A DNA stretch of 64,000 nt, taken from contig CP053418.1 of the NCBI GenBank assembly GCA_013127575.1, forward strand, positions 2,294,001-2,358,000. The letters are read 5' to 3'. Of the stretch, positions 1-64,000 are shown piece by piece. Made by a program: the position numbers and the translations under genes. Position 1 is the first letter of the stretch, and each line of letters starts with the position of its first letter. This DNA is from Ramlibacter terrae. GTDB lineage: Bacteria; Pseudomonadota; Gammaproteobacteria; Burkholderiales; Burkholderiaceae_C. Under the pieces are notes generated by a model, which was not told where the DNA came from, made no database searches, and worked only from the letters and a program-made list of their open reading frames with translations.

Positions 1-54
1 CGAACTTCCGAGCAGCTGGCGCAGCCGGCCGACACCGGCCGCAAGGCCGCCTGA
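1..54 (+). CDS. uppS: C-terminal tail of undecaprenyl diphosphate synthase (partial)
   Basis: Only the last 17 codons are present, reading [17 protein letters not shown] then TGA at 52-54. The RTSEQL stretch resembles the C-terminal end of UppS proteins, and cdsA starts 13 bases later, as in the conserved uppS-cdsA-dxr order. UppS makes the C55 isoprenyl carrier for cell-wall synthesis. The identification rests mainly on gene order. Confidence 0.7.
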
Positions 55-67
55 ACGAAGGCCTCGC

Positions 68-919
68 ATGCTCAAGCAGCGGATCATCACCGCCGTGATA
101 TTGCTGGCCATCCTGTTGCCGGCCCTGTTCTGGCGCACGCCCGAACCTTTCCTCGCCATCACGCTGCTGCTGATCGCGGCCGGCGGCTGGGAGTGGGGCC
201 GCCTCAACGGACTGGGGCAGGGCGCCGCGGTCGCCGCCGGGGCCGTGACGCTGGTGCTGAGTGCCGCGACTGGTGGCTGGGCTGGCCCGAGCGCCCTTCG
301 TCCGTGCTTTGGTCGGTGGTGGGCGCGGCCGGGTGCTGGCCGGCGCCTGGCTGATGCGCAGCGGCGTCGAGGGCTGGCCGCGCATCCCGCGCGCGGCGCG
401 CCTGGTCGTGGGGCTGCTCTCGCTGGTGCTGGCCTGGCTCGCCATGGCGCAGGCCCGCGTCGTCGGCATCAACTTCCTGCTCTCGGTGCTGGTGCTCGTG
501 TGGGTGGCCGACATCTTCGCGTACATCGCCGGGCGCACGCTGGGCGGCCGCTTCTTCGTGCGCAAGCTGGCGCCGGCGCTCAGCCCGAAGAAGAGCTGGG
601 AAGGCGCGCTGGGCGGCATGCTCGCCGTGGTCGTGCTGGCATTCGCACGGACCTTCGCCGACGCTGCCGCGCAGGCGCAGGTGCCCAGCCTCTATTCGCG
701 GCTGGCCTCGATGGGCTGGCTGGTGCTGGTCATCGCCGCCGTCTTCTGGCGGCCATGAGCGTCGTCGGCGACCTGGTGGAGTCGCTGGTCAAGCGCAGCG
801 CCGGCTTCAAGGATTCCAGCCAGTTGCTGCCCGGGCACGGCGGCGTGCTCGACCGCGTCGACGCGCTGCTGCCGACGCTGCCGCTGGCCATGATGCTCGC
901 CTCGCTCGCCCAACGATGA
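68..919 (+). CDS. cdsA: Phosphatidate cytidylyltransferase, three frame breaks
   Basis: CdsA converts phosphatidic acid and CTP to CDP-diacylglycerol, the precursor of all bacterial phospholipids, in the inner membrane. After joining frames the protein is about 284 residues with several hydrophobic segments. It ends with the family signature: KRSAGFKD, then PGHGG and DRVD (bases ~790-865). Breaks lie near 292 (CTGG for CCTGG), 332 (CCGGG for CCTGGG) and 746 (TTCTGG for TTCCTGG). Restoring one base at each gives one continuous frame. The stop TGA (917-919) overlaps the dxr start in ATGA, so the two are probably translationally coupled. A functional gene damaged by sequence errors is far more likely than a pseudogene. 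Confidence 0.93.
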
Positions 920-2102
920 AGCAGCGGGTCACCGTCCTCGGTTCCACCGGCTCGGTGGGCGCCAACACGCTCGACGTGATCGCCCGGCACCCCGGGAAAT
1001 TCGAGGTGTTCGCGCTCAGCGCATCGTCGCAGGTCGACGTGATGCTGCAGCAGTGCGCGCAGTTCCGTCCGGCGATCGCCGTGATGGCGCAGGAGGACGC
1101 GGCCCGCGCACTCGCGGCCCGCATGGAATCCAGTGGCCTGCCGACGCGCGTGCTTGCCGGTCCCGCCGCCATCGAGACCATCGCCGCCCATGAATCCACC
1201 GACGTCGTGATGGCGTCGATCGTCGGCGCGGCCGGCCTCGCGTCGTGCCTTGCCGCCGCGCGCGCAGGCAAGAAGCTGCTGCTGGCCAACAAGGAGGCGC
1301 TGGTGGTCGGCGGCGACCTGTTCCTGGCCGCCGTGCGCGAAGGCGGAGCCCGCCTGCTGCCGATCGACAGCGAGCATTCGGCCATCTTCCAGTCGCTGCC
1401 CGAAGACGCGTCCACGGGACGCGCGGGTCGAGAAGATCATCCTCACCGCTTCCGGCGGCCCGTTCCGCACGCGCTCGCCCGAGTCGCTGCGCGACGTCAC
1501 GCCGGAACAGGCCTGCGCCCATCCGAACTGGGTGATGGGCCGCAAGATCTCGGTCGATTCGGCGACCATGATGAACAAGGCGCTGGAGGTGATCGAGGCC
1601 CGCTACCTGTTCGGCTGGGAGCCGCAGCGGCTGGAGGTCGTGATCCATCCCCAGAGCGTCATCCACTCGATGGTGCAGTACCGCGACACCTCGGTGGTGG
1701 CGCAACTCGGCACGCCCGACATGCGCGTCCCCATCGCCTATGGCTGGCCTGGCCCGACCGCGTGGCATCCGGCGCGCAGGCGCTGGACTTCTCCGCGCTG
1801 GCCGACATGAGCTTCGAATCGCTGGACAGCCGCGGCCACCGCGAACGCTTTCCGGGACTGCAACTTGCATGGGACAGCCTGGCGGCGGCGCCCGGCACCA
1901 CGGCGGTGCTCAACGCCGCCAACGAGGTGGCCGTCGCCGCCTTCTGGACCGCCGCATCCGCTTCGACCAGATCCATGCGGTGAATCTTGCAACTTTGACG
2001 GCTGTGCTTCCCTCCAAGCCTGCATCGCTGCAAGATCTGCTGGCGCTGGATGCCGAGTCGCGGGCCGCCGCGGCGCAGGCCATGGCGCGGCTCGCGGCCT
2101 GA
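916..2102 (+). CDS. dxr: 1-deoxy-D-xylulose 5-phosphate reductoisomerase, three frame breaks
   Basis: Dxr catalyses the committed step of the MEP isoprenoid pathway, DXP to MEP with NADPH. The N-terminal nucleotide-binding motif is visible ([16 protein letters not shown]), as are ANKEALV, the metal and substrate region SEHSAIFQ, and [10 protein letters not shown]. The reconstructed length is about 396 residues, matching the E. coli enzyme (398). Breaks lie near 1414 (ACGGGAC for ACCTGGGAC, two bases lost), 1741 (GGCTGG for GGCCTGG) and 1944 (TTCTGG for TTCCTGG). The gene overlaps cdsA by 4 bases and precedes rseP by 12 bases. An essential enzyme broken three times at the same kind of pentamer points to sequencing error. 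Confidence 0.94.
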
Positions 2103-2114
2103 CCGGAGTTGCCA

Positions 2115-3488
2115 ATGCTCACCGTTGTTGCGTTCATCGTGGCCCTCGGGCTGCTGATTGCCATTCATGAATACGGCCACTATCGCGTGGCGGTGGCCTG
2201 CGGCGTGCGCGTGCTGCGCTTTTCCATCGGCTTCGGGCCGACCCTGTACCGCTGGAAGCCGAAGAAGCAGCACCCGGGGCAGGACACGGAGTTCGTGATC
2301 GCCGCCCTGCCGCTGGGCGGCTTCGTGCGGATGCTCGACGAGCGTGAAGGCCCCGTCGCGGCAAGCGAGCGTGACCGTGCGTTCAACACGCAGCCGGTGA
2401 AGAAGCGCGCGGCGATCGTCGCCGCCGGCCCCGCCGCCAACCTGCTGCTGGCCGTGCTCTTGTACGCGCTGGTCAACTGGATGGGCGTGCAGGAGCCGCA
2501 GCCGGTGCTGGGCAGCCCCGTGCCCGGTTCGATCGTCGCCGAGGCCGGCCTGCGCGGCGGCGAACGCGTCACCGCCGCCGCCTTCGATGGCAGCGAGCTG
2601 GAGCCGATCGAATCGTTCGAGGAACTGCGCTGGCTGCTCACGCGCGGCGCGCTCGACGGCCGCGACCTGCGCGTCGCGCTGGCGCCCGAAAGCCCCGGCG
2701 GCGGCCGCGCGAGGTGCTGCTGCCGCTGGCGCGGATCGACGCCCGCGAGGCCGACGCGCAGTTGATGCGCAAGGTCGGCGTGGTGGGCCCCGGAGCCCCG
2801 CGCGGCTCGGTGACGTCAAGGCGGGCGGCGCCGCGGAGCGCTCCGGCCTGCGCCGGGGCGACTGGTCCTGCGCGTGGACGGCAAGCCGGTGGGCGACGGC
2901 CAGCAGCTGCGCGACGTGATCCGGGGGCAGGTGAAGGACGGCAAGGCCGCCACCGCCACACGGGACATCGAGCGCGCCGGGCGCCGGCTCGCGCTGCAGG
3001 TCACGCCCGACGTGGTCAACGACGGCGGCGGCAGCTTCGGCCGCATCAACGCCTATGTGGGCGCGCCGCCGGCCATGCTGACGGTGCGGCACGGCCCGGT
3101 CGACGGCCTCTGGAAGGGCGTGGTTCGCACACGGGAAGTGTCCGAGCTCACGCTGCGCATGATGGGCCGCATGGTGATCGGCGAAGCCTCGCTGAAGAAC
3201 CTGAGCGGCCCGCTGACCATCGCCGACTACGCCGGCAAGTCGGCCAGCCTCGGGCTCACGCAGTACATCCTGTTCCCTGGCCCTGATCAGCGTGAGCTGG
3301 GCGTGCTGAACCTGCTGCCGCTGCCTGTCTTGGACGGTGGGCACCTGATGTATTATCTTTGGGAGGCCGTCACGGGCAGGAGCGTCACGGACGCCTGGAT
3401 GGAGCGCCTGCAACGCGGCGGCGTGGCGGTGCTGCTGGTGATGATGTCGATCGCGCTCTTCAACGACGTCACGCGCCTCTTTGGTTGA
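2115..3488 (+). CDS. rseP: RseP site-2 zinc metalloprotease, several frame breaks
   Basis: RseP is the inner-membrane intramembrane protease that cleaves anti-sigma-E RseA and remnant signal peptides. The zinc motif HEYGH is at residues 18-22 in the first transmembrane segment. PDZ-like regions follow, and the C-terminal NLLPLPVLDGGH motif is read near 3310-3345. The reconstructed length is about 458 residues. Breaks are near 2705, 2790 (CCGG for CCTGG), 2864 (GACTGG for GACCTGG), 3285 (extra C: CCCTGG) and 3296 (AGCTGG for AGCCTGG). ATG 2115 is chosen over the in-frame TTG at 2109 because it gives the usual hydrophobic start. It sits before bamA, as in most proteobacteria. Confidence 0.93.
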
Positions 3489-3540
3489 ATAGAACGAAGC
3501 CGCTTCCGACGCGCGTGCCGCCGGCACCACCCTGATTTCA

Positions 3541-5836
3541 ATGAAACACAACATCAAGCGCTTTCGCGTGCGTACCGTCGCGGCTGTGGCCGCCCCGGCA
3601 TTCGTGGCCAACGCGTGGGCGGTCGACCCGTTCACCGTGCGCGACATCCGGGTCGAAGGCCTGCAGCGGGTGGAGCCCGGCACAGTCTTCGCATCGCTCC
3701 CGTTCCGCGTGGGCGACCAGTACAACGACGAAAAGGGTTCCGCCGCCATCCGCGCGCTGTTCGCCCCGGGGCTGTTCAAGGACGTCCGGCTGGAGGTCAA
3801 CGGCGACGTGCTGATCGTGGCCGTCGAGGAGCGCCCCACCGTCGCCGACGTCGAATTCAGCGGCACCCGCGAGTTCGACGCCGACACGCTGAAGAAGGCG
3901 CTGCGCGACATCGGCCTGACCGAAGGCCGCCCGTACGACCAGGCGCTCGCCGACCGCGCGGAGCAGGAACTCAAGCGGCAGTACATCAACCGCAGCCTGT
4001 ACGGCGCGGAGGTCGTCACCACGGTGACGCCGATCGAGCGCAACCGCGTCAACCTCACCTTCACGGTGACGGAGGGCGAGCCCACGCGCATCAAGGAACT
4101 GAACATCGTCGGCAACAACGCGTTCAGCGACGGCACGCTGCGCGGCCTGTTCGACCTCGACACCGGCGGCTGGCTGTCCCTGGTACACCAAGTCCGACCG
4201 CTACGCGCGCACCAAGCTCAACGCCGACCTCGAGGCGCTGCGCTCCTACTACCTGCAGCGCGGCTTCCTCGAGTTCCGCATCGACTCGACGCAGGTCGCG
4301 ATCTCTCCGGACAAGCAGGAAATCAGCATCACCATCAACGTCACCGAAGGCGAACGCTACGTCGTCTCCGGCGTGCGGCTGGAAGGCGACTACCCGGGCA
4401 AGGAAGACGAGTTCAAGACGCTCGTGAAGATCCGCCCCGGCCAGCCGTACAACGCCGACGAGGTGACCGAGACCACCAAGGGCTTCACCGACTACTTCGG
4501 CAACTTCGGCTATGCGTTCGCGCAGGTGGAAGCGCGCCCGGAGATCGACCGCGCCAACAACCGCGTGTCGTTCGTGCTGGCCGCCACGCCGTCGCGCCGC
4601 GCGTACGTGCGCCGCATCAACATCGCCGGCAACAACCGCACCCGCGACGAAGTGCTGCGCCGCGAATTCCGCCAGTTCGAGTCGAGCTGGTACGACGCCG
4701 AGAAGATCAAGCTCTCGCGCGACCGCCTCGACCGCCGGGCTTCTTCAAGGACGTCAACGTCGAAACCGCCGACGTGCCCGGCGCGCCCGACCAGGTCGAC
4801 CTGACGGTCACCGTGACCGAGCGTCCCACCGGCAGCCTGCAGCTGGGCGCCGGCTTCTCCAGCGCCGAGCGGCTGGCGCTGTCGTTCTCGATCAAGCAGG
4901 AGAACCTGTTCGGCTCCGGTGAATACCTCGGCGTCGAGGTCAACACCAGCAAGTACAACCGCACGTTCGTCATCAACTCGGTCAACCCGTACTTCACGCC
5001 CGACGGCATCTCCCGCACGATCGACCTGTACCACCGCAGCTCGCGGCCGTACGAGGACCCGGGGCGGCAACTACCAGCTGATCACGTCGGGCCTCGGCCT
5101 GCGCTTCGGCATCCCGTTCAGCGAAGTCGACACGGTGTACTTCGGCGGCAGCGTCGAGCGCACCGAGATCCGCCCCGGCACCAACATCCCGGCCGCGTAC
5201 CTCGAGTACGCCGAGCGTTTCGGCTACACCAGCTCCGCCGTGCCGCTGTCCGTGGCGTGGTCGCGCGACGACCGCGACAGCACCATCGCCCCCACCAGCG
5301 GCGCCTACCGCCGCGTGGCCGGCGAGCTGGGCGTGATCGGCGACGCGCGCTACTTCCGCACCAACCTGCAGTACCAGCACTACCTGCCGCTGAACAAGCA
5401 GTACACCCCGGCTTTCAACGGCGAACTGGGCTGGGGCAAGGGCCTGAGCGGCCGCCCGTTCCCGGTGTTCAAGCACTTCTACTCGGGCGGCCTCGGCTCG
5501 GTCCGCGGCTTCGACCAGGGCACGCTGGGCCCGCGCGACATCACCGGTTCGTCGATCGGCGGCCCGCGCAAGATCACGCTGAACGCCGAGGTGATCGCGC
5601 CGTTCCCGGGCGCCGGCAACGACCGCACGCTGCGCGTGTTCGGCTTCGCCGACGTCGGCAACGTGTTCGGCGAAGACGAGCCGCTGAAGGTCGACGACCT
5701 GCGCGCCTCGGTAGGCGTGGGCCTCTCGTGGCTGTCGCCGATCGGGCCGCTGCGCATCGCCGCAGCCCAGCCGGTGCGCAAGCAGGCTGGCGATAGAATC
5801 CAGAGATTCCAATTCCAGATCGGAACCTCCTTTTGA
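3541..5836 (+). CDS. bamA: Outer membrane assembly factor BamA, three frame breaks
   Basis: BamA is the beta-barrel core of the BAM complex, inserting outer-membrane proteins. A signal peptide ends at ANAWA, followed by VDPFTVRDIRVEGLQRVEPG, the start of POTRA1. Five POTRA repeats occupy roughly the first 420 residues. A C-terminal barrel follows, with the VRGF loop motif (~5500) and the terminal aromatic sequence FQIGTSF. The reconstructed length is about 764 residues. Breaks lie near 4178 (CCCTGG for CCTGG), 4737 (CCGGG for CCTGGG) and 5068 (an insertion in a CCGGGG context). The stop TGA (5834-5836) shares its last A with the skp ATG. Confidence 0.95.
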
Positions 5837-6343: not shown

Positions 6344-6350
6344 GGCTCCG

Positions 6351-7317
6351 GTGGGGCTGCAACTCGGCTCCATCGTTGCCTCGCTCGGCGGCGAGCTGCA
6401 CGGCGACGGCGCGCTGCGCATCGAGGGGCTGGCCCCGCTCGATGCCGCCGGGCCGCAGCACCTGAGCTTCCTCTCCAACCCCAAGTACCGGCAGCAGCTC
6501 GACGCTTCGCGCGCGGGCTGCGTCATCGTCGGCCCGGCCGTGCGCGACCAGGCGCTGGCGCGCGGCGCCTGCATCGTCGCCGACGATCCCTATCTCTACT
6601 TCGCCCGCGCCACCCAGCTGTGGAAGCGCGAGCACGCGCGCAGCGGGGGCCCGGCGATCCACCCCAGCGCTGTCGTGGATGCCGAGGCGTCGGTGGCGGG
6701 GGGGTGCGCATCGGGGCGCAATGCGTGGTCGAACGCGGCGCCCGCATCGGCGCCGGCACCGTGCTCAAGGCGCGCGTGTACGTCGGCGAAGACGTCGTGA
6801 TCGGCGAACGCTGCACCCTGCACCCGGGCGTGGTGATCGGCGCCGACGGCTTCGGTTTCGCGCCCAACCGGGGCGCGTGGGAAAAGATCGAGCAGCTCGG
6901 CGGGGTGCGCATCGGCAACGACGTCGACATCGGCGCCAACACCTGCATCGACCGCGGCGCGCTGGCCGACACCGTGATCGAGGACGGCGTGAAGCTCGAC
7001 AACCTGATCCGGTGGGCCACAACTGCCGCATCGGCAAGCACACGGCCATCGCGGGCTGCACCGGCATCGCGGGCAGCGCCAACATCGGCGCGCACTGCAC
7101 GATCGGCGGGGCTGCCATGATCCTGGGCCACCTGACGATCGCCGACCGCGTCAACATTTCGGCGGGCACGTTCGTTGCCCGCTCCATCCAGAAGCCGGGC
7201 CTGTACACCGGCATTTTCCCGGTGGACGAGAATGGCGCACGGGAGAAGAACGCCGCCACGCTGAAGCAGCTCTACACCTTGCGTGAACGCATCAAGGCGC
7301 TCGAAAAGAAATCATGA
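6351..7317 (+). CDS. lpxD: UDP-3-O-acyl-glucosamine N-acyltransferase, two frame breaks
   Basis: LpxD adds the second acyl chain in lipid A synthesis, using acyl-ACP. It starts at GTG 6351 ([15 protein letters not shown]), has the N-terminal uridine-binding domain ending at LSFLSNPKY, then hexapeptide repeats forming a left-handed beta helix. The catalytic His is in [10 protein letters not shown]. The reconstructed length is about 322 residues. Breaks are near 6703 (a run of seven G) and 7011 (ATCCGGTGG for ATCCAGGTGG). The stop overlaps the fabZ start (ATGA at 7314). The lpxD-fabZ-lpxA-lpxB order is the classical lipid A cluster. Confidence 0.94.
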
Positions 7318-7760
7318 CCAAGTTGGACATCCACCAGATCCTCAAGCTGCTGCCGCACCGCTATCCCATCCTGCTGGTGGACCGCGTGCTGGAGCTCGAC
7401 GAGGGCAAGCGCATCAAGTCGCTGAAGAACGTGACCATCAACGAGCCGTTCTTCACCGGCCACTTCCCGCACCGGCCGGTGATGCCGGGCGTGCTGATGC
7501 TGGAGGCGATGGCGCAGACGGCGGCCCTGCTGTCGTTCGCCACCGCCGGCGTGGTGCCCGACGACAAGACGGTCTACTACTTCGCCGGCATCGACGGCGC
7601 GCGCTTTAAGCGGCCGGTGGAACCGGGCGACCAGCTGGTGATGGAAGTCGAGCTGCTGCGCCACAAGGCCGGCATCTACAAGTTCAAGGGCGTGGCCCGC
7701 GTGGGCGAAGACATCGCCTGCGAGGCCGAGCTGATGTGCACCATGCGCACCATTGCGTGA
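7314..7760 (+). CDS. fabZ: 3-hydroxyacyl-ACP dehydratase FabZ
   Basis: FabZ dehydrates beta-hydroxyacyl-ACP in fatty-acid elongation and competes with LpxA/LpxD for substrate, which explains its place in this operon. The 148-residue frame is intact. [14 protein letters not shown] precedes the hot-dog active-site region [20 protein letters not shown], where the catalytic His and Glu lie. It overlaps lpxD by 4 bases and is separated from lpxA by 16 bases. I see no CCTGG or CCAGG in it, which fits its being undamaged. Confidence 0.97.
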
Positions 7761-7776
7761 AGCCGGCGGAGCGGGC

Positions 7777-11133: not shown

Positions 11134-11147
11134 AACCCTGCGTCCTT

Positions 11148-11215: not shown

Positions 11216-11237
11216 CGAGGGTTTTGCGACTGAAGGC

Positions 11238-11243: not shown

Positions 11244-11371
11244 CAAGGGCTTTCCCACACACCCGCCGTACGCCTAGCGCCACCAGCCACTCCCCCGACA
11301 AAAGCAACATCGAGAGCCAGGCTTTCGGTCGCGTTCTGGGCGTACCCGTGCAATCAAAACCGGAGAACCCA

Positions 11372-12537
11372 GTGCTTTCGTCGCTTCAAGGCGCATTCCC
11401 GCCCGCCATCCTGGCGCTCGCAGACGGCACGGTCTTTATCGGCAACTCGATCGGGGCCGCAGGCTCCACCACCGGCGAGGTCGTGTTCAACACGGCGCTC
11501 ACCGGCTATCAGGAAATCCTGACCGACCCGAGCTACTGCCAGCAGATCGTCACGCTCACCTATCCGCACATCGGCAACTACGGCGTCAACGCCGAAGACG
11601 TCGAAGCCACCGGGGTGTACGCCGCCGGCCTGATCATCCGCGACCTGCCGCTGGTCGCCTCCAGCTTCCGCTCCGACATGTCGCTGCAGCAGTACCTGCA
11701 GCGCGAGAAGACGGTGGCCATCGCCAACATCGACACCCGCAAGCTCACCCGCATCCTGCGCAGCAAGGGCGCGCAGAACGGCTGCGTCCGGCCCTCGAAG
11801 CCGGCAAGGAAGTGACTCCGGAGCTGGTCGACCAGGCCGTCGCCGCGGCCCGCAAGGCGCCGAACATGAGCGGCCTCGACGGCCAAGGACGTCTCGATCA
11901 AGAAGTCCTACGACTGGGACCAGACCGAGTGGGAACTGGGTACCGGCTACGGCCAGCTCGAGAACGCGAAGTACCACGTGGTCGCCTTCGACTACGGCGT
12001 CAAGAAGAACATCCTGCGCATGCTCGCCGAGCGCGGCTGCAAGGTCACGGTGGTGCCGGCCCAGACGCCCGCCTCCGAAGTGAGGAAGCTCAACCCCGAC
12101 GGCGTGTTCCTCTCCAACGGCCCCGGCGACCCGGAGCCTTGCGACTACGCCATCGACGCCACGCGCGAGCTGATCGAAGACGGCTACCCCACCTTCGGCA
12201 TCTGCACGGGCCACCAGATCATGGCGCTGGCCTCCGGCGCGGACACGTACAAGATGAAGTTCGGCCACCACGGCGCGAACCACCCGGTGAAGGACCTCGA
12301 CACCGGCCGCGTCTCGATCACCAGCCAGAACCACGGCTTCGCGGTGGACGAGAAGACGCTGCCGGCGAACCTGCGCGCGACGCACATCTCGCTGTTCGAC
12401 GGCACCCTGCAGGGCCTGGCCCGCACCGACAAGCCCGCGTTCTGCTTCGGGGCCACCCGGAGGCATCGCCGGGCCCCCACGACATCGGCTACCTGTTCGA
12501 CCGCTTCACGGGCCTGATGGACGCGAAGAAGAAATGA
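11372..12537 (+). CDS. carA: Carbamoyl-phosphate synthase small (glutaminase) subunit, three frame breaks
   Basis: CarA hydrolyses glutamine and passes ammonia to CarB for carbamoyl phosphate (arginine and pyrimidine synthesis). The start is GTG 11372, with GGAG 7-10 bases upstream. An upstream in-frame GTG at 11348 is less likely. The N-terminal CPSase domain has [20 protein letters not shown]. The class-I amidotransferase has GICTGHQ (nucleophilic Cys), the GANHPVKD region and a C-terminal [11 protein letters not shown] once repaired. Breaks are near 11793 (CCGG for CCTGG), 11881 (CGG for CCTGG) and 12448 (CGGGG for CCAGGG). Reconstructed length is 389 residues. The stop overlaps the next gene in ATGA. 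Confidence 0.94.
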
Positions 12538-13168: not shown

Positions 13169-13183
13169 CGAACTGAAGAAATT

Positions 13184-16445
<3,262 letters not shown>

Positions 16446-18718: not shown

Positions 18719-20621
18719 TTGAACAATCAGTGGTTTTCCAAGATCGCCGTCTGGCTGGTGATCGCACTGGTGCTTTTCACCGTATTCAAGCAGTTCGATA
18801 CGCGTGGCGCGGCCGGTGCTTCGGTGATGGCGTATTCGGATTTCCTGCAGGAAGTCCGTAACAACCGCATCAAGAGCGCGGAGATCCGGAGGGCCGGGGC
18901 GGCACCCAGATCATCGCGACCACGCAGGACGACCGCAAGGTGCGCACCACCGCCACCTACCTCGACCGCGGGCTGGTCGGCGACCTGATCAACAACAACG
19001 TCAAGTTCGACGTCAAGCCCCGCGAGGAAGGCTCGCTGCTCATGACGCTGCTGGTGTCGTGGGGGCCGATGCTCCTGCTGATCGGCGTCTGGATCTACTT
19101 CATGCGGCAGATGCAGGGCGGCGGCAAGGGCGGCGCCTTCAGCTTCGGCAAGTCCAAGGCGCGCATGCTCGACGAGAGCAGCAACCAGGTCACCTTCGCC
19201 GACGTCGCGGGCTGCGACGAGGCCAAGGAAGAAGTCAAGGAGGTCGTCGACTTCCTGAAGGACCCGCAGAAGTTCCAGAAGCTCGGCGGCCGCATCCCGC
19301 GCGGCCTGCTGCTGGTCGGCCCCCGGGCACCGGCAAGACGCTGCTCGCCAAGGGCATCGCCGGCGAGGCCAAGGTGCCTTTCTTCTCGATCTCGGGTTCC
19401 GACTTCGTCGAGATGTTCGTCGGCGTGGGCGCGGCCCGCGTGCGCGACATGTTCGAGAACGCCAAGAAGAACGCCCCCTGCATCATCTTCATCGATGAAA
19501 TCGACGCGGTCGGCCGCCAGCGCGGCGCCGGCCTCGGCGGCGGCAACGACGAACGCGAGCAGACCTTGAACCAGATGCTGGTCGAGATGGACGGCTTCGA
19601 AACCAATCTCGGCGTCATCGTGGTGGCCGCCACCAACCGCCCCGACATCCTCGACGCCGCCCTGCTGCGCCCGGGCCGCTTCGACCGCCAGGTCTACGTC
19701 ACGCTGCCCGACATCCGCGGCCGCGAGCAGATCCTGAACGTCCACATGCGCAAGATCCCGATCGGCCGGGACGTCAACCCGTCGATCATCGCCCGCGGCA
19801 CCCCCGGCATGTCCGGCGCCGACCTCGCCAACCTGTGCAACGAAGCCGCCCTGATGGCCGCCCGCCGCAGCGCCCGCGTGGTCGAGATGCAGGACTTCGA
19901 GAAGGCCAAGGACAAGATCATCATGGGCCCGGAGCGCAAGTCCATGGTCATGCCCGAAGAGGAACGCCGCAACACGGCGTACCACGAGTCGGGCCACGCC
20001 ATCATCGGCAAGCTGCTGCCCAAGTGCGATCCGGTCCACAAAGTCACCATCATCCCGCGCGGCCGCGCGCTGGGCGTCACGATGAGCCTGCCGGCGCAGG
20101 ACCGCTACAGCTACGACCGCGAGTACATGCTGAACCAGATCAGCATGCTGTTCGGCGGCCGGATCGCCGAAGAAGTGTTCATGAACCAGATGACCACCGG
20201 CGCTTCCAACGACTTCGAGCGCGCCACCCACGGCCCGCGACATGGTCATGCGCTACGGCATGACGGACGCGCTGGGCCCGATGGTCTACGCCGAGAACGA
20301 AGGCGAAGTGTTCTGGGCCGCTCGGTCACCAAGACCACCAGCATCAGCGAACAGACCATGCAGAAGGTCGACGCCGAAGTCCGCCGCATCATCGACCAGC
20401 AGTACTCGCTGGCCCGCCGGCTGATCGAGGACAACAAGGACAAGATGCACCGGATGGCGCTGGCCCTGCTCGAGTGGGAGACCATCGACGCCGAGCAGAT
20501 CGACGACATCATGGCCGGCAAGGAACCGCGTCCGCCCAAGGACTTCACGCCGCGCACGCCGCCCTCGTCGGGCAGCGGCGGCACGACCGTCGCCCCGGAC
20601 CCGGCGCCCAACGCCGCGTAA
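18719..20621 (+). CDS. ftsH: ATP-dependent zinc metalloprotease FtsH, four frame breaks
   Basis: FtsH is the membrane-anchored AAA+ protease that controls LpxC, heat-shock sigma factor and misfolded membrane proteins. TTG 18719 starts [19 protein letters not shown] (first membrane segment); a second lies near [19 protein letters not shown]. Walker A is broken at 19323 (conserved GPPGTGKT needs one more base). Walker [14 protein letters not shown] and the zinc site HESGH are intact. Breaks are near 18887 (CCGG for CCAGG), 19323, 20230 (CGG for CCTGG) and 20311 (TTCTGG). Reconstructed length is about 635 residues. It is followed by a strong terminator. Confidence 0.96.
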
Positions 20622-20692: not shown

Positions 20693-21549
20693 ATGCAGTT
20701 CTGGCAGACGTCACGTTTTCGCATCGCGCTGGACCAGCCGCGCGTGATGGGCATCGTGAACGTCACGCCCGATTCCTTCTCCGACGGCGGCCGCCACTAC
20801 GCCAGCACGCGCAGCGCCATCCAGCATTGCGAGACGCTGGTGGACGAGGGCGCCGCCATCCTCGACATCGGCGGCGAATCCACCCGCCCCGGCATCGCGC
20901 CGGTGCCGCTGGAAGAAGAACGCAGCCGGGTCGTGCCGGTGGTGCGCGAGGCGCTGCGCCCGGGCGTGCCGGTCTCCGTCGACACCTACAAGCCCGAACT
21001 GATGCGCGAGGTGCTGGAGCTCGGCGCCGACATCGTCAACGACATCTGGGGCCTGCGCCAGCCGGGCGCGGAAGAGGCCGTGGCGGCGCATCCGGCCTGC
21101 GGCGTCTGCATCATGCACATGCACGGGGAGCCGCGCACCATGCAGCGCAGCCCGCTCGAGGGCGACCCGGTGCCGCCGGTGCTGGCCTTCCTGCGCGAAC
21201 GCTCGCAGGCGCTGCGCGCGCGGGGCGTGGCGGCGGACCGGATCGCCCGGGACCCGGGCATCGGCTTCGGCAAGACGGTAGCGCAGAATTTCGCCTTGCT
21301 CGGGCGGCAGCGGGAGCTGGCCGGCGACGGCTACGTGATGCTCGCGGGCTGGTCGCGCAAGTCGTCGCTCGGCACGGTTTCCGGCCTGCCGGTCAACGAG
21401 CGCGTGCCGGCCAGCGTGGCCGCGGCGCTGCTTGCGGTGGACCGCGGGGCGCACGTGGTGCGCGTGCACGACGTGCGGGAGACAGTGGCCGCCCTCAAGG
21501 TGTGGCAAGCAATGCAATCGGCCTGCGGGGAGCAGGCGGGGAGAACAAC

Positions 21550-21553
<4 letters not shown>
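20693..21553 (+). CDS. folP: Dihydropteroate synthase
   Basis: FolP condenses p-aminobenzoate with hydroxymethyl-dihydropterin diphosphate in folate synthesis and is the sulfonamide target. The 286-residue frame is intact. [15 protein letters not shown] is the family signature, with [21 protein letters not shown] and a C-terminal GWSRKSSLG also visible. The stop overlaps the glmM start (ATGA at 21550), the conserved folP-glmM pairing. A short RBS-like GGAGG lies near 20677. Confidence 0.97.
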
Positions 21554-22881
<1,328 letters not shown>

Positions 22882-22882
<1 letters not shown>

Positions 22883-27071: not shown

Positions 27072-29159
27072 ATGTGCAATACCGCGCCCCTGGTGGTGCC
27101 CTTCCTCGACCGCGACCACAGCATCCTCGCCTTCAACGAACGCGTGCTGGACTGGGCCTTCCGGGCCGCGGTGCCGCTGCTGGAGCGGCTGCGTTTCCTG
27201 ACCATCGTCTCGTCCAACCTCGATGAATTCTTCGAGGTGCGCGGTCGAACACCTGAGCGCGGCCCGGGCCGGCGAGCGCAAGGGGCCGTTCACCGTCCGC
27301 AGCTACGAAGACATCTCCGCGGCCGCGCACAAGCTGGTGGCGCGCCAGTACGCGCTCTACAACGACGACCTGATGCCGGCCTTCGCCAAGGCGGGGATCG
27401 AGATCGTCTCGCACGGCGCGCGCAGCGCGGCGCAGCGCAAGTGGGTGCAGGAGTACTTCGAGCGCGAAGTGCGCCCGCTGCTGATCCCGGTCGGGCTCGA
27501 TCCCGCGCACCCTTTCCCTCAGGTGGCGAACAAGTCGCTCAACTTCATCGTGCGGCTCTCGGGCAAGGACGCCTTCGGCCGCGAGAACGAGATCGCCATC
27601 GTCAAGGTGCCGCGCGTGCTGCCGCGGCTGATCCCGATGCCGGCGCGCCTGTGCGGCAAGCGCCGGCTGTTCGTGTCGCTCTCCAGCGTGATCCGCGCGC
27701 ACCTCGACGCGATGTTCCCCGGCCGCGAAGTCGGCGAGTTCTCGCAGTTCCGCGTCACCCGCCATTCCGACTGGCGGTGGGCGAGGAAGACGTGCGCAAC
27801 CTGCGCACCGCGCTGCGCCTCGGCCTGCAGAGCCGGCACTATGGGCAGGCGGTGCGGCTGGAGGTGTCGGCTGGCTGCTCGGAGTACCTCTCCACCTTCC
27901 TGCTGCGGCAGTTCGCGCTGCCCGAGGCCGCGCTGTACCACGTGCACGGGCCGGTGAACCTCGCGCGGCTGCAGCAGATCATCGACCTGGTCGACGCGCC
28001 GAAGCTGCTGTTCCCGGCGTCCGCGCCGAGCTACCCGAAGCAACTGGTGCCGGGCCGCCCGGTGTTCGAGCAGCTCAAGCGCGGCGACGTGCTGATCCAC
28101 CAGCCGTTCGAGAGCTTCGACGGCGTGCTGCAGTTCCTGCGCGAGGCCGTGAACGATCCGCAGGTGCTGGCCATCAAGCAGACCATCTACCGCACCGGCG
28201 CCGACTCCGAGATGATGACCCTGCTGAAGCAGGCCGTCGGCCGCGGCAAGGAGGTCACCGTGGTGGTGGAACTCAAGGCGCGCTTCGACGAGGAGGCCAA
28301 CATCAACTGGGCCGAGGAGCTGGAGGCCATCGGCGCGCAGGTGGTGTACGGCGTGGTCGGCCTCAAGACGCACGCCAAGATGCTGCTGGTGACGCGGCGC
28401 GAAGGCAAGGCGCTGGTCCGCTACGCGCATCTCTCCACCGGCAACTACAACCCGCGCACCGCGCGCCTCTACACGGACATCAGCCACCTCACCTGCGACC
28501 CGCTGCTCACCGCCGACGTCGAGCAGGTGTTCATCCAGCTCGCGAGCCAGAGCCGGCTGCCGCGGCTGAACCACGTGCTGCTGGCCCCGTTCCACCTGCA
28601 GCGGCGGCTCATCGAGCTGATCGACCTGGCGGGCGCGGCGGCCGCGGCCGGCAAGGAAGGGCGCGTCGTCCTCAAGATGAACGCGCTGACCGACGAACCG
28701 CTGATGCAGGCGCTGGTGCGGGCGGGGCAGAAGGGCGCGCGCATCGACCTGATCGTGCGTGGCGCCTGCATGCTGCCCGCGCGGGTGCCTGGCCTCTCCG
28801 AGAACATCCGCGTGCGCTCGGTGATCGGGCGGCTGCTGGAACACTCGCGCGTGTTCTACATCTGCGCCGGCGAGGAGGAGCACGTGTACCTCTCCAGCGC
28901 CGACTGGATGAACCGCAACATGCTGCGCCGCATCGAGCTGGCGTGGCCGATCAACGATCCGCAGCTGCGCCAGCGCGTGATCGACGAGTGCCTGGTGGCC
29001 TACCTGCACGACAACCGCGACGCACGGGACCTGCAGCCCGATGGCAGCTACCGGCGGGCGAAGGATGCCGAGGAGCCGGGCGGCCATGGCGCGCAAGCCG
29101 CGCTGATGCGCCGCTACGCAGCCGCGCCGGGCGAAGTGGAGGTGCGGGCATGGACCTGA
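27072..29159 (+). CDS. ppk: Polyphosphate kinase 1, two frame breaks
   Basis: Ppk1 reversibly polymerises ATP gamma-phosphate into polyphosphate at the inner membrane. LRFLTIVSSNLDEFFEVR is the N-terminal family motif. The phosphorylated His and its partner lie in GLKTHAKMLLVTRRE and RYAHLSTGNYNPRTARLYTD, and the PLD-like second half continues to VAYLHDNRDARDLQPDG. Breaks are near 27261 (CGCGGTC for CGCCTGGTC) and 27773 (GACTGG for GACCTGG). Repair gives 696 residues, the usual size. The end overlaps sixA by 10 bases, and ppx lies close by on the opposite strand. Confidence 0.95.
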   Translation: MCNTAPLVVPFLDRDHSILAFNERVLDWAFRAAVPLLERLRFLTIVSSNLDEFFEVRGRTPERGPGRRAQGAVHRPQLRRHLRGRAQAGGAPVRALQRRPDAGLRQGGDRDRLARRAQRGAAQVGAGVLRARSAPAADPGRARSRAPFPSGGEQVAQLHRAALGQGRLRPRERDRHRQGAARAAAADPDAGAPVRQAPAVRVALQRDPRAPRRDVPRPRSRRVLAVPRHPPFRLAVGEEDVRNLRTALRLGLQSRHYGQAVRLEVSAGCSEYLSTFLLRQFALPEAALYHVHGPVNLARLQQIIDLVDAPKLLFPASAPSYPKQLVPGRPVFEQLKRGDVLIHQPFESFDGVLQFLREAVNDPQVLAIKQTIYRTGADSEMMTLLKQAVGRGKEVTVVVELKARFDEEANINWAEELEAIGAQVVYGVVGLKTHAKMLLVTRREGKALVRYAHLSTGNYNPRTARLYTDISHLTCDPLLTADVEQVFIQLASQSRLPRLNHVLLAPFHLQRRLIELIDLAGAAAAAGKEGRVVLKMNALTDEPLMQALVRAGQKGARIDLIVRGACMLPARVPGLSENIRVRSVIGRLLEHSRVFYICAGEEEHVYLSSADWMNRNMLRRIELAWPINDPQLRQRVIDECLVAYLHDNRDARDLQPDGSYRRAKDAEEPGGHGAQAALMRRYAAAPGEVEVRAWT

Positions 29160-42892: not shown

Positions 42893-44162
42893 TCAGCCGC
42901 CCCGACGCATCATGTCGAAGAACTCGACGTTGGTCTTGGTGGCCTTCATCGACTTGAGCACCATTTCCATCGCCTCGATCTCGTCCATGTTGTACATGAA
43001 CTGGCGCAGGATGCGGGTCTTCTGCAGGATCTCGGGGGCCAGCAGCAGTTCCTCGCGGCGCGTGCCGGAGCGGTTGAGCTGGATCGAGGGGAACACGCGC
43101 TTTTCGTACAGGCGGCGGTCGAGGTGCAGTTCGCAGTTGCCGGTGCCCTTGAACTCCTCGAAGATCACTTCGTCCATGCGCGAGCCGGTGTCGACCAGCG
43201 CCGTGGCGATGATGGTCAGCGAACCGCCTTCTTCGACATTGCGGGCCGCGCCAGGAAGCGCTTCGGGCGCTGCAGCGCATTGGAGTCGACGCCGCCGGTG
43301 AGCACCTTGCCCGACGAGGGCACGACGTTGTTGTAGGCGCGGGCCAGGCGGGTGATCGAGTCGAGCAGGATCACCACGTCCTTCTTCAGTTCGACCAGGC
43401 GCTTGGCGCGCTCGATCACCATTTCGGCCACGTGCACATGGCGGGCGGCCGGCTCGTCGAAGGTCGAAGCGATCACTTCGGCCTTGACCGAGCGCTGCAT
43501 GTCGGTCACTTCTTCCGGGCGCTCGTCGACCAGCAGGACCATCATGTGGACGTCCGGGTGGTTGGCGGCGATGGCGTGCGCGATGTGCTGCATCATCACC
43601 GTCTTGCCGCTCTTGGGCGGCGCGACGATCAGCGCGCGCTGGCCGCGGCCGATGGGGGCGATGATGTCGATGACGCGGCCCGTGATGTTCTCTTCGCTCT
43701 TGGCGCCGGCGCCGTCACGTTCGAGGCGCATCTGTTCCCGGGGAACAGCGGCGTCAGGTTCTCGAACATGATCTTGTGCTTGTTGTCCTCGGGCAGCCCG
43801 CCGTTGACCTTGTCGAGCTTGGTCAGCGCGAAGTAGCGCTCGCCGTCCTTGGGCGTGCGCACCTCGCCTTCGATCATGTCGCCGGTGTGCAGGTTGAAGC
43901 GGCGCACCTGCGACGGCGAGATGTAGATGTCGTCGGTGCTGGCGGTGTAGCTCGTGTCGGGGCTGCGCAGGAAACCGAAGCCGTCGGGCAGGATTTCCAG
44001 CACGCCGTCGGCGAACACCTGTTCGCCGGCGCGGGCGCGCTTCTTGATGATCGCGAACATCAGCTCCTGCTTGCGCATCCGGCCTACGTTCTCGATTTCG
44101 AGCTCTTCGGCTTGCTTGGAGACTTCGGAGACGTGCAACGCCTTGAGTTCGTTCAGGTGCAT
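42893..44162 (-). CDS. rho: Transcription termination factor Rho, two frame breaks
   Basis: Rho is the hexameric RNA helicase that ends transcription. The N-terminal RNA-binding domain has [20 protein letters not shown] and [16 protein letters not shown]. The ATPase has [20 protein letters not shown] (Walker A), [13 protein letters not shown] and [16 protein letters not shown] (Walker B), and the C-terminus ends FDMMRRGG. Breaks are near 43739 (CCCGGG, one base short) and 43251 (CCTGGCG for CCTGGGCG). About 423 residues. trxA lies upstream on the same strand, a common pairing. Confidence 0.96.
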
Positions 44163-50122: not shown

Positions 50123-50135
50123 GAGAAGGATTCGC

Positions 50136-50459: not shown

Positions 50460-50465
50460 TCGCGC

Positions 50466-54279: not shown

Positions 54280-54285
54280 CGCAGA

Positions 54286-54306
54286 AAGGGCCCCGCGGGG
54301 CCCCTT
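54286..54306. terminator. Convergent palindromic terminator
   Basis: GGGCCCCGCGGGGCCC at 54288-54303 is a perfect 16-base palindrome flanked by AAA on one side and CTTCTTC on the other. It lies between the permease stop and the stop of the opposing gene and can serve both strands. Confidence 0.65.
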
Positions 54307-54324
54307 CTTCATGGCGCGTGCCGG

Positions 54325-54783: not shown

Positions 54784-54795
54784 GGTCAGGCCTCC

Positions 54796-55314: not shown

Positions 55315-55482
55315 GTCGCATCCCTTTCGAAGTTGGAATGGACACACTGTGGCCGTGCGCGGCCGTGGCGCGCATCGGACCGTGGCCGTTAAGTTCGTCG
55401 GAGTCGTCCTATGCCAGGACGCGGTGCTTACAACTGGACGCCCCAGCTATACAAAGGGCGTGAAGAACTTCGCAGTCGAAGC

Positions 55483-58539: not shown

Positions 58540-59008
58540 ACCAGATCGAGATCTACACCGACGGCGCCTGCAAGGGCAACCCGGGGCCGGGCGGATGGGG
58601 GCGCTGCTGCGCTCCGGCCCCACGCAGAAGGAAATCTACGGGGGTGAACTGGGCACCACCAACAACCGCATGGAGCTGATGGCGGTGATCCAGGCGCTGG
58701 AGGCGCTCAAGCGCCCGTGCGCCGTCACGCTGTACCTCGACAGCCAGTACGTGCTGAAAGGCATCACCGAGTGGCTGCCCGGGTGGAAGGCGAAGGGGTG
58801 GAAGACGGCGAGCAAGCAGCCGGTGAAGAACGTGGAGCTCTGGCAGCGGCTCGACGACCTGGTGGCCCATGGCGGCCACAAGATCGACTGGCGCTGGGTG
58901 CGCGGCCACAACGGCGATGCCGGCAACGAGCGCGCCGACGCGCTGGCCAATCTGGGGGTGGCGCAGGCCCTGTCCGGGAGCGCGCCCAAGGCGCCGCCGG
59001 CAATGTAA
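58536..59008 (+). CDS. rnhA: Ribonuclease HI, one frame break
   Basis: RNase HI degrades RNA in RNA-DNA hybrids. The DEDD residues lie in [39 protein letters not shown] and [17 protein letters not shown]. One break near 58600 is a shortened G run (TGGGGG for TGGGGGG), not CCWGG. Repair gives 157 residues. It is coupled to the upstream methyltransferase. The 153 bases after its stop show no ORF or clear promoter before the RND adaptor. Confidence 0.95.
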
Positions 59009-59161
59009 AGACGCCACAACGCTGGCACTTATCGTGCATGCGGGGCTCTGCCATCTGGGCGGGGGCTATGCCCGGCCGCATACCTGCTGTTACATTGGCA
59101 GTTTGGCCCCGGGGCGCGGTCCCGGTGGCGCCTGCACGCACTCTTCGACGGATCAGTATTC

Positions 59162-60428
59162 ATGGCATTGAAGGCAATCCATACCGCGGTCGCCGTCGTC
59201 GGCATCGCCGTGGCGTCCGGCGCCGCCTGGTGGTTCCAGCACAAGCCGGCCCCGGCCAGCGCGCAGGCCGCCCAGCCGGCTGCCGGTGGAAACGCACCGG
59301 CGGGTGGCCCCGCCGGCCCTCGCGGCCGCCGGCGGTCGAAGTGGCACGGGTCGAAGTGGCCACGCTCACCGACGATGGCCAGGCGGTCGGCAGCCTGCGT
59401 TCGCGCCAGAGCGTGGTGCTGCGCCCCGAGGTGTCGGGCCGCGTCACCCAGATCAACTTCCGTGACGCCCAGCGCGTGCGCCGTGGCCAGCTCCTCGTGC
59501 AGCTCGACGACCAGCTGCCGATGGCGCAGGTGAAGCAGGCCGAGGCCGAGGTCTCCATCGCGCGCGCCAACCACAAGCGCAACCGGGGAACTGGTGGAAG
59601 AGAAGTTCATCGCCCAGCGCGCCGTGGACGAAAGCGCCGCCAACCTGCAGGTCGCCGAAGCCAAGCTGTCGCTGGCGCGCGCCACGCTGGCCCGCCTGAA
59701 GATCGTCGCGCCGTTCGACGGCATCGCGGGCATCCGCAACGTGAGCGTCGGCGATTACCTCAAGGACGGCGCCGACATCGTGAACATCGAAGACCTCGAT
59801 GCGGTGTTCGTCGACTTCCGCATGCCCGAGCGCTTCCAGACCAAGCTGCGTCCCGGCCAGAACGCGATGGTCGACCTCGACGCCCTGCCGGGCCAGCGCT
59901 GGTCCGCCGTCATCCCGGCCATCGACCCGCTGGTCGACGCCAATGGCCGCTCGGTCGGCGTGCGCGGCTGCATCGACAACCGCCAGCTGCAGCTGCGCCC
60001 GGGCATGTTCGCGCGCATCACCCCGGTGTTCGGCGTGCGCGAAAGCGCGCGCGTGGTGCCCGAGGAAGCCATCGTCCCGCAGGGCGGCCGCCAGTACGTG
60101 TACAAGCTGGTGGACGGCCCCGACCAGACACTCGCATCGCCCAGCGCGTCGAGATCAAGGTCGGCATCCGCCAGCCCGGCAAGGTGGAGATCACCCGGGG
60201 CCTGCAGCCCGGCGACCTCGTCGTCACGGCCGGCCAGCAGCGCATCCAGCGTGACGGCATGCCGGTGCGCGTGCTCGACGTGCCGCGCGGCGCGCAGCAG
60301 CCCGGCACCGCCGGGGCCGGCGCCGGTCCGGCGCGCCGGTCGCCGCCGCGGCCCAGCTCGTGCCCGCCGCGCCCGGCAATCCCTGCGCCGCCCTCGCCAC
60401 GGTGCAGCCGCGCCCGCGCGCCGGCTGA
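59162..60428 (+). CDS. RND efflux periplasmic adaptor (membrane fusion protein), frame breaks
   Basis: About 422 residues after repair. The N-terminal anchor is HTAVAVVGIAVASGAAWWF, then a Gly/Pro/Ala-rich linker. The barrel-sandwich motif follows: QSVVLRPEVSGRVTQINFRD and RRGQLLVQLDDQLP. A coiled-coil hairpin comes next (VKQAEAEVSIARANHKRN), then LARLKIVAPFDGIAGIRNVS. Breaks are near 59324 (CGCCGG for CGCCTGG), 59588 (extra G), 60130 and 60332 (GTCCGG for GTCCTGG). It precedes the RND pump by 16 bases. No outer-membrane channel gene is present in the window. Confidence 0.92.
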
Positions 60429-60444
60429 CGCCGGGGAGACCTCC

Positions 60445-63400
60445 ATGCAGTTGCCCGAGATTTCCATCCGGCGGCCGGTGTTCGCCACCGTGCTGTCGCT
60501 GCTGGTCGTGCTGGTCGGTGCGGTCAGCTTCGACCGGCTCTCCGTGCGCGAGTACCCGAAGATCGACGAGCCGGTGGTGACCGTCACCACCCGCTACCCC
60601 GGCGCCTCCGCCGAGGTGATCGAGTCGCAGATCTCCAAGCCGCTCGAAGACTCCATCGCCGGCATCGACGCGGTCGACGTGATCACCTCGATCAGCCGCG
60701 CCGAGCAGAGCCAGATCTCGGTGCGCTTCCGCCTCGAGAAGGATCCGGACGCCGCCGCCGCCGAAGTGCGCGACCGCACGGCGCGCGTGCGCAACCGGCT
60801 GCCGCAGGAAATCGACGAGCCGGTGATCGCCAAGGTGGAGGCCGATGCCTTCCCGGTGATCTTCCTGACGTTCTCCAGCGACACCATGACGCGGCTGCAG
60901 ATCAACGACATGGTGAGCCGCATCGCCAAGCCGCGCCTGCAGACCGTGACGGGCGTGGCCGACGTGCGCATCTACGGCGAGCGCAAGTACGCCATGCGCG
61001 TCTGGCTCGACGCGCAGAAGCTCGCCGGCTTCAAGCTGACCTCGCAGGACGTCGAGGACGCGATCCGCCGCAGCAACCTCGAGCTGCCGGGCGGCCGCAT
61101 CGAGTCGCAGCAGCGCGAGTTCAGCGTCACGTCGCAGACCGACCTGATCCGGCCGGCGCAGTTCGCCGACATCACGGTCAAGAACGTCAACGGCTTCCCC
61201 GTGAAGATCCGCGACGTGGCGCGGGTGGAAGAGGGCGCCGCCGACGAGCGCAGCGCGGTGCGCCTGAACGGCCGCGACGCGATCTCCGCCGGCGTGATCC
61301 GCCAGGCCACGGCCAACCCGCTGGAGCTGTCGCGCGGCGTGCGCGAGATGATCCCCAAGCTCAAGCAGGACCTGCCGGGCGACGTGGTGATCGACATCGC
61401 CAACGACAACTCGGTCTTCATCGACCGCTCGATCAAGAACGTGTACCAGACCATCATCGAGGCGGTGGTGCTGGTGGCGCTGGTGATCTTCTTCTTCCTG
61501 CGCACCTTCCGCGCGTCGATCATCCCGATCGTGACGATCCCGGTCAGCCTGGTGGGCACCTTCGCGCTGATGGCGCTGGCCGGCTTCTCGATCAACACGC
61601 TGACGCTGCTGGCGCTGGTGCTGGCGATCGGCCTCGTCGTGGACGACGCCATCGTGATGCTGGAGAACATCTTCCGGCACATCGAAGAAGGGCTGGACCC
61701 GTTCTCGGCGTCGATCAAGGGGGCGCGCGAGATCGGCTTCGCGGTCATCACGATGACGGCCACGCTGGTGGCGGTGTACGCGCCGCTCGCCTTCACGCCG
61801 GGCCGCACCGGGCGGCTGTTCATCGAATTCGCGCTGGCGCTGGCCGGCGCCGTGGTGGTGTCGGGCTTCGTGGCGCTGACGCTCACGCCGATGATGTGTT
61901 CCAAGCTGCTGCGGCACAACCCGAAGCCCAACTGGTTCGACCGGAAGATGGAGCGCGGCCTGACGCGCGTGTCGGACGGCTATGCCAGCCTGCTGCGCTG
62001 GATCATCACCACCGGCTACCACCCGAAGGCGGGCGAGCGCGGCGCCGGCGTCCTGGCGCGGCGCGTGTTCGTCCGGCGCGGTGGATCGTCATCGGCGGCA
62101 TGCTGCTCAGCGCGATCGCGATTTCGCTCGTCTACCCGAGCATGCGGTCGGAGCTGTCGCCGATCGAGGATCGCGGCGTGATCTCGTCCAACATCACGGC
62201 GCCCGACGGCGCCACGCTGGACTACACCAACCGCTACGCCCGCGAACTGGAGCGCCGGGCGGCCAGTACAAGGAATTCGACCGGATCTTCGCCAACGTGG
62301 GCAACCCGTCGGTGTCGCAGGGCAACGTGACCTACCGCACCGTCGACTGGGAAGACCGCAAGCGCAGCACCATCGAACTGGCGCGCGAGCTCGGCCCCAA
62401 GATGGCCGCGCTGCCGGGCGTCAACGCCTTCCCGATCACGCCGCCTTCGCTGGGCGGGGCTTCCGCGACCGGCCGGTGAACTTCGTGATCCAGACGTCCG
62501 ACAGCTACCAGGCGCTCAACCAGGTCGTGCGGCAGATGCTCGACGAGATCGCCAAGCAGCCGGGCATCCTGCAGCCCGACGTCGACCTGCGGCTGAACAA
62601 GCCGGAACTGCGCCTCGACATCGACCGCGCCAAGGCGGCCGACATGGGCGTGCCGGTGGACGCCGTCGCCAAGGCGGTCGAGACGATGCTGGGCGGGCGC
62701 AACGTCACCCGCTACAAGCGCGACGCCGAGCAGTACGACGTGATCGTGCAGATCCAGTCGTCGGGCCGCACCACGCCCGAGGACATCGACGGCATCTACG
62801 TGCGCGGCCGCAACGACACCGTCATCCCGCTGTCGGCGCTGGTCAAGATCAGCGAGAACGTCAGCCCGCGCGAGCTGAACCACTTCGGCCAGCGGCGCTC
62901 CGCCACGATCTCGGCCAACCTCTCGCCCGACTACTCGCTGGGCGAGGCGCTGACGTTCATGAACCAGGCCGCGGGGCGGGTTCTCAAGCCCGGCTACACG
63001 ACCGACCTGAACGGTACCTCGCGCGAGTTCCGCAACTCGCAGGGCGCGCTGGCCATCGTGTTCGTGCTGTCGCTGGTGTTCATCTTCCTGGTGCTGGCCG
63101 CGCAGTTCGAGAGCTTCCTCGACCCGCTGGTGATCATGCTGGCCGTGCCGCTGTCGATGATCGGCGCGCTGCTGGCGCTCAAGTGGTCGGGCGGCTCGCT
63201 CAACGTGTACTCGCAGATCGGGCTGATCACGCTGGTGGGGCTGATCACCAAGCACGGCATCCTGATCGTGGAGTTCACCAACCAGCTGCGCGAACACGGG
63301 CTGGCCACGGTGGACGCGATCGTCAAGGCCGCCGGCCAGCGCCTGCGCCCGATCCTGATGACCACCGGCGCCATGGTGCTGGGCGCGCTGCCCCGGCGCT

Positions 63401-63599
63401 CGCCACCGGCGCCGGCGCCGAAAGCCGCCAGCAGATCGGCTGGGTGATCGTGGGCGGCATGTCGCTGGGCACGCTGCTGACCATCTTCGTGGTGCCCACC
63501 ATGTACTCGGTGTTCGCCCGCGCGAAGGTGCCGGGCGCCAACACGGCGACGGTGGTCGAGACGCCCGTGCACCACGAGCACGACACGGTGGCGAAGTAG
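60445..63599 (+). CDS. RND efflux pump (HAE1 family inner-membrane transporter), four frame breaks
   Basis: Proton-driven tripartite efflux pump, about 1052 residues after repair. IRRPVFATVLSLLVVLVGAV is the first helix. Two large periplasmic domains and 12 membrane segments follow. The proton-relay Asp pair is in GLVVDDAIVMLENIFRHIEE, and the matching Lys is in LVGLITKHGILIVEFTNQ. Breaks are near 62081 (GTCCGG), 62261 (CGCCGG), 62453 (CGGGG for CCAGGG) and 63391 (CCCCGG for CCCCTGG). The substrate is unknown; the pattern suits multidrug or solvent efflux. A terminator follows. Confidence 0.94.
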
Positions 63600-63623
63600 G
63601 GTTGCCTTGCGCCTGAAATGACG

Positions 63624-63660
63624 AATGCCCGCGGGCGCGAGCCGGCGGGCATTTTGCTTT
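63624..63660 (+). terminator. Rho-independent terminator after the RND pump
   Basis: AATGCCCGC (63624-63632) pairs with GCGGGCATT (63645-63653) around a 12-base loop, followed by TTGCTTT. It lies 24 bases after the pump stop. Confidence 0.8.
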
Positions 63661-63698
63661 GCGGAGTGCAGGCGGCGCGGGCCGCCGGCGTCAGCCGC

Positions 63699-64000
63699 TT
63701 ATTCGCACTCGGAGACCAGGACCTTGCAGGCCTTGTTGCCGCATTCGTTCATGGCCATCGTGTTGGCGACGTCCTGCGAGCGGCCATAGCCGACGCCGTA
63801 GTACTTCTTCGAGCCGGCGTAGGCGCCGCACTTGTCGAAGCGCACGACCACCTTGCAGTTCTTGTTGCCCGACTTGCGGCATTCCTTCATGGCTTCGCGG
63901 GCCGCTTCCTCGCGCGAGCTCGCGCCCGTCACCACACCGTAGCCGGGATCGGTTTCACCTTCTTCGTCGTCGACGGCGATGGCGCCGGCGGCCTGCACGC
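63699..64000 (-). CDS. DUF4189-like secreted Cys-rich protein (partial, runs off the window)
   Basis: The readable part has about 99 residues: YGVVTGASSREEAAREAMKE, CRKSGNKNCKVVVRFDKCGA, KKYYGVGYGRSQDVANTMAM and NECGNKACKVLVSECE before TAA at 63699-63701. Paired Cys residues and the repeated A..A...C pattern match DUF4189, a small exported domain. The leading QAAGAIAVDDEEGETD suggests that a signal peptide lies just outside the window. No frame break is seen. It is convergent with the RND pump. Confidence 0.75.
   Translation of the reverse strand, partial: VQAAGAIAVDDEEGETDPGYGVVTGASSREEAAREAMKECRKSGNKNCKVVVRFDKCGAYAGSKKYYGVGYGRSQDVANTMAMNECGNKACKVLVSECE

Follow-up and report, generated by a model that had tools for sequence, protein, structure and literature searches.

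The frame breaks that run through this 64,000-base stretch of the genome of Ramlibacter terrae, an environmental bacterium (the window, bases 2,294,001–2,358,000 of a 5,277,406-base single-contig genome), are very probably errors of the assembled sequence, linked to methylation and located mostly at CCWGG, and not mutations. An earlier note on this DNA had attributed them to CCWGG methylation disturbing base calling, and that reading is supported by the concentration of the breaks at CCWGG, by misreadings of the same pentamer in rRNA genes and by an intact Dcm-like methyltransferase gene elsewhere in the genome; from these we infer both the sequencing platform and the methylation itself.

Syntenic stretches of five Ramlibacter relatives (G007, G009, G011, G014 and G015) were aligned to the window, and we collected clusters of gaps whose length is not a multiple of three, which number 2.49–3.39 per kb between the window and the five relatives and 0.67–1.75 per kb among the relatives themselves. 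A break was accepted when supported by at least two relatives and by at least 60% of the relatives covering that place. This rule retained 107 of 280 clusters, all of them in the 57,000 bases that two or more relatives cover; it dropped 140 with support from a single relative where at least two cover, together with the remaining 33. The earlier observation of about one hundred frame breaks is confirmed. Most breaks have a net size of −1 (n = 83), followed by +1 (n = 11), −2 (n = 10), −4 (n = 2) and +2 (n = 1). Of 16 example coordinates given in the earlier note, 13 have a break of the size described there, backed by every covering relative (two to five). The break at position 746 is present but weak, with support from one of two relatives; the gaps at 38026 are inconsistent and show no clean gain; and no break lies within 12 bases of 39624.

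These breaks are concentrated inside CCAGG and CCTGG. When each pentamer of the relatives was scored by how often the window breaks there, CCWGG ranked first among 413 pentamer classes, at 150 of the relatives' 1465 occurrences (11.6-fold), whereas the same scoring gave no enrichment for CCSGG (4/1086, 0.4-fold), GCWGC (6/2257) or other GC-rich pentamers. By direct overlap, 59 of the 107 breaks fall at a CCWGG of a relative, compared with a mean of 7.3% and a maximum of 18.7% in 500 random-shift trials. Of the 119 intact window sites at which two or more relatives align, only 83 are matched by a CCWGG in any of these relatives; the overlap therefore has to be corrected upward for divergence, to about 77% of breaks (bootstrap 59–97%). 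The previous assignment of the ‘great majority’ of breaks to CCWGG was thus right about the focus and slightly strong in its wording. Of 151 CCWGG sites shared by three or more relatives, 36 are intact in the window, 25 show an indel and 90 carry substitutions, and in this alignment to relatives the indels at CCWGG (25/151) lie far above those at matched pentamers, as had been predicted (15/2608 at ten pooled control classes; Fisher p = 8e-23). The pool comprises ten of twelve control rows, leaving out CCGGN (1/300) and GATC (1/210). The GCWCG controls show one indel in this count and two in that of the W transitions described below, because ties among relatives were resolved differently, with no effect on the result. 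The damage is nevertheless partial, as the note also held: 130 CCWGG sites are intact in the window (2.03 per kb, versus 5.34–8.13 per kb in the five relatives), including three in each of the spans that the note calls lpxB and greA, neither of which carries an accepted break.

Frame breaks are only part of the damage. A frame-silent class, overlooked previously, is a transition at W that makes CCWGG appear as CCSGG (CCAGG as CCGGG, CCTGG as CCCGG), and it accounts for 17 of the 151 conserved sites but only 3 of 1551 control sites from seven motif classes. The other substituted sites comprise 1 W transversion, 56 other single substitutions and 16 multiple substitutions. Although silent with respect to frame, the W transition is often missense: 11 of the 17 hit the second base of a codon, four the first base, and two lie outside gene calls, these positions being approximate as our simple choice of open reading frames sometimes picked the wrong strand. 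When scaled by the 130 intact sites, the W transitions in the window come to about 61 and the CCWGG indels to about 90, and a second route to the indel number, from the break count, gives 93; by these estimates, roughly every second CCWGG site has probably been misread. Extrapolated to the whole 5.28 Mb, these figures give indels on the order of 7,000 and substitutions on the order of 5,000, as an estimate and not a count.

The same signature is found wherever we looked in this genome, regardless of gene function. From 13 further 20-kb stretches we tested two for breaks, at 1.5 and 3.5 Mb, and found 28 and 19, respectively, with 12 and 9 at CCWGG; this pentamer again ranked first, of 368 and 373 classes, with enrichments of 11.3-fold and 11.1-fold. 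Moreover, the ratio of observed to expected CCWGG is 0.36–0.60 in all 14 of the genome's own stretches, the window included, and 0.90–0.99 in the five relatives. Applying the same pipeline to the relatives gave 0.13–0.27 breaks per kb in G007, G009, G011 and G015, none of them at CCWGG, and 0.50 per kb in G014 (1746001-1820000), with 3 of 23 at CCWGG; in that run the window had 1.86 breaks per kb, 52 of 104 at CCWGG. As a side observation, G014 consists of 2 contigs, is 90% complete, lacks a match to the methyltransferase discussed below and has breaks that are not focused on CCWGG; it is perhaps another noisy long-read assembly.

Ribosomal RNA genes show the same misreading. Two rRNA operons lie in tandem near 4.63 Mb (4628453-4639166), 5.7 kb apart, and differ from each other in 5 aligned columns of 16S and 8 of 23S. 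Eleven CCWGG sites, six in 16S and five in 23S, are unanimous in seven relatives; the 22 copies of these sites in our genome include 8 intact, 11 with a W transition and 3 with an indel, so that 14 of 22 are altered. One 16S site has an additional change beside it in both copies, and one altered 16S site presumably falls in the universal 790-loop/806R primer region. In relatives, by comparison, none of nine 16S copies deviates at or beside these sites, and three of nine 23S copies do so by one substitution. At 4 of the 11 sites the two operons read differently, and unlike changes at one site in two operons are what misreading would be expected to produce and what real mutation hardly explains. 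Elsewhere in 16S the two copies carry 14 and 16 substitutions, versus 0–5 in relatives. At unanimous 23S columns, indels outside and inside CCWGG sites number 5 and 0 in copy A and 6 and 1 in copy B; eight of nine relatives' 23S copies have no indel outside CCWGG sites and the ninth has 3. Other read errors therefore exist in this assembly too.

Could such other errors account for the whole pattern? Generic long-read noise in a GC-rich genome, falling mainly at homopolymers and owing nothing to methylation, would fit the 23S indels just described, and G014 has more breaks than the four other relatives despite lacking the methyltransferase match. It would also fit some of the 48 breaks that have no CCWGG in a supporting relative, of which 11 (23%) coincide with a homopolymer of 4 or more, the background share being 9%. 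Over all 107 breaks, however, such homopolymers are at the background level (11/107, 9%), CCWGG is hit by 59, and other GC-rich pentamers, CCSGG among them, are not enriched. Generic noise would explain no more than a minority of the breaks; that it is their main cause is very unlikely, and we reject it as such.

The genes affected argue in the same direction for methylation-linked sequence errors. We named a gene only where NCBIfam named the relative's protein, and nine names rest on matches over the family cut-off. On the forward strand, three breaks each lie in rseP (2115..3488; TIGR00054), bamA (3541..5836; TIGR03303) and carA (11331..12537; TIGR01368), two each in lpxD (6351..7320; TIGR01853), carB (13184..16445; NF003671), glmM (21502..22882; TIGR01455) and the polyphosphate kinase 1 gene (27093..29159; TIGR03705), and four in ftsH (18719..20621; TIGR01241), and on the reverse strand two lie in rho (42893..44162; TIGR00767). 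A probable phosphatidate cytidylyltransferase gene (68..919, forward strand) has two more, its name being tentative because the relative's protein scores 139 bits against an NF008635 cut-off of 385. A second candidate for carB, the open reading frame at 58717-62181, was rejected, as carB is the gene at 13184-16445 and this frame lies partly across the region that aligns with an RND permease of a relative. Genes such as bamA, ftsH, rho and glmM can hardly be lost without killing the cell, so breaks in them count for an artefact, as does the low listed completeness of this 5.28-Mb single-contig genome, only 63.72%.

A genome-wide search for the CCWGG methyltransferase that the earlier note had predicted found an intact candidate outside the window. 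The locus, of the restriction-modification kind (C1:5699-8188), encodes an MvaI/BcnI-family nuclease on the forward strand and, on the reverse strand, Vsr and a Dcm-like C5 methyltransferase whose gene is open over 365 codons. All three genes are intact, the G+C content is 55.5% compared with about 69% in the window, and CCWGG is absent from the 2490 bases of the three genes. The note had left the enzyme as either Dcm-like or m4C-forming; m5C is favored, in that PF00145 (the C5 class) has one strong match in the genome, at 280.7 bits against a cut-off of 22, and PF01555 (the N4/N6 class) has none. The protein also scores 319.3 bits with TIGR00675 (cut-off 100.65), but 418.9 bits with NF007772, the family for Dcm proper, where the cut-off is 710, and we therefore call it Dcm-like only. 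Its best matches of solved structure, aligned over residues 13–347, are 3lx6 (E 2e-104) and 3me5 (E 4e-104), which we take to be Shigella Dcm, with the target-recognition region presumably inside the aligned stretch. Vsr scores above both of its cut-offs (TIGR00632, 145.9 versus 97.85 bits; PF03852, 108.3 versus 27 bits), and the nuclease reaches 129.5 bits with PF15515 (cut-off 25) but matches no PDB sequence at E up to 1.

These structural matches and the adjacent vsr gene resemble the Dcm or M.EcoRII type of methyltransferase with Vsr, whereas the length of 365 amino acids, the score under the NF007772 cut-off and the nuclease gene next to vsr do not; enterobacterial dcm is a solitary gene. 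MvaI recognizes CCWGG, and the cutting specificity of the nuclease encoded here could at best be guessed from the neighboring methyltransferase. The text of PMC4081073 that bears on these enzymes describes MvaI and EcoRII as neoschizomers and gives the BcnI site as CC|SGG. Among 59 genomes of the genus, 14 have matches to the methyltransferase, and close ones occur only in G016 and in G007, which has two genes (C1:3147843-3148865 and 2171246-2172331, 61% and 67% identity). At one locus in each of these two genomes, beside the first gene in the case of G007, Vsr adjoins the methyltransferase gene, and the 4 kb covered there contain nothing that matches the MvaI-like protein. G007, a single contig, nevertheless has few breaks, no CCWGG damage in its syntenic region and an observed-to-expected CCWGG ratio of 0.94. 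As it is undamaged despite two such genes, the gene alone is insufficient, and the sequencing method or the activity of the enzyme must matter.

We propose that the Dcm-like methyltransferase probably places 5-methylcytosine in CCWGG and that the assembly probably derives from a nanopore run on native DNA, assembled without short-read correction. The base caller would then misread CCWGG in so regular a way that roughly one site in two is wrong even in the consensus, usually losing one base, sometimes losing two or gaining one, or replacing W by its transition partner. Activity of the enzyme on CCWGG, the use of a nanopore platform and a disturbance of the signal by the methyl group are what we infer from the assembled sequence.

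Part of the locus could be enlisted for real mutation instead. A cell whose own MvaI-like nuclease cuts poorly methylated CCWGG might rejoin the ends with small losses or gains. A gene for a nuclease of the MvaI/BcnI family is present, and two Ku domains score over their family cut-off (C1:2807611-2808159 and 1322242-1322787), making bacterial end joining possible. MvaI cuts so as to leave a one-base overhang, and trimming of that overhang would fit the loss of W alone. Such scars would, however, have to be tolerated in genes like bamA, ftsH and rho and at conserved rRNA positions, altered differently between operons at 4 of 11 sites, and they leave the clean W transitions unexplained. Real mutation of this kind is highly improbable, more so than generic noise, and end-joining scars are rejected as the main cause, as is pseudogenization.

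Least probable, to the point of near-dismissal, is that the shortage of CCWGG reflects genuine avoidance of restriction and has nothing to do with the breaks, as avoidance can produce neither frame breaks nor rRNA changes and much of the shortage is explained by indels and W transitions, and we reject it as the main cause too. It may still contribute on the side. Adding estimated losses to intact sites (130 + 61 + 90 in 64 kb) gives an original density of about 4.4 per kb, still below the 5.34–8.13 of relatives, and CCWGG mismatches fall at codon position 3 in 51% of cases, within the 42–56% of six control motifs, so part of the shortage may be genuine avoidance.

Methylation-linked sequencing artefacts of the kind to which we attribute these breaks are already known. 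According to the relevant portion of Wick et al. 2019 (PMC6591954), Dcm motifs accounted for about 70% of the consensus errors in nanopore data under the then-default models, and its concentration of errors in CCAGG/CCTGG of native DNA is like the estimated 77% or so of frame breaks here. Unlike that report, our case concerns a Ramlibacter known from its assembly alone, with a probable nanopore platform, and includes a measured W-transition class, whereas the cited portion gives no breakdown of Dcm errors by type. According to the cited part of PMC11389150, methylation-linked nanopore typing errors are largely removed by whole-genome PCR; like ours, the errors it describes are systematic, particular to a strain and tied to motifs that recur in native bacterial DNA, whereas the damage here is much denser than in the R10.4.1 reads and core-genome typing it describes. 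DNA methylation is likewise among the sources of ONT error listed in the section of PMC11649196 consulted. A literature search for a nanopore genome report on Ramlibacter gave nothing of use among the matches listed.

There are several implications. First, it would be wrong to take the broken genes, the low completeness and many of the rRNA differences seen here for biology, and gene losses in such assemblies are not to be trusted. Second, we consider it likely that a finished assembly preserves, in its error scars, a kind of fossil methylome, which names CCWGG without the raw signal and suggests a specificity for this uncharacterized enzyme. If so, the combined signature of indels and W transitions could be mined across public long-read genomes to pair methyltransferases with their motifs. 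Finally, the W transition is the most important of these errors: it escapes gene callers, yet changes amino acids and rRNA signatures in apparently whole genes.
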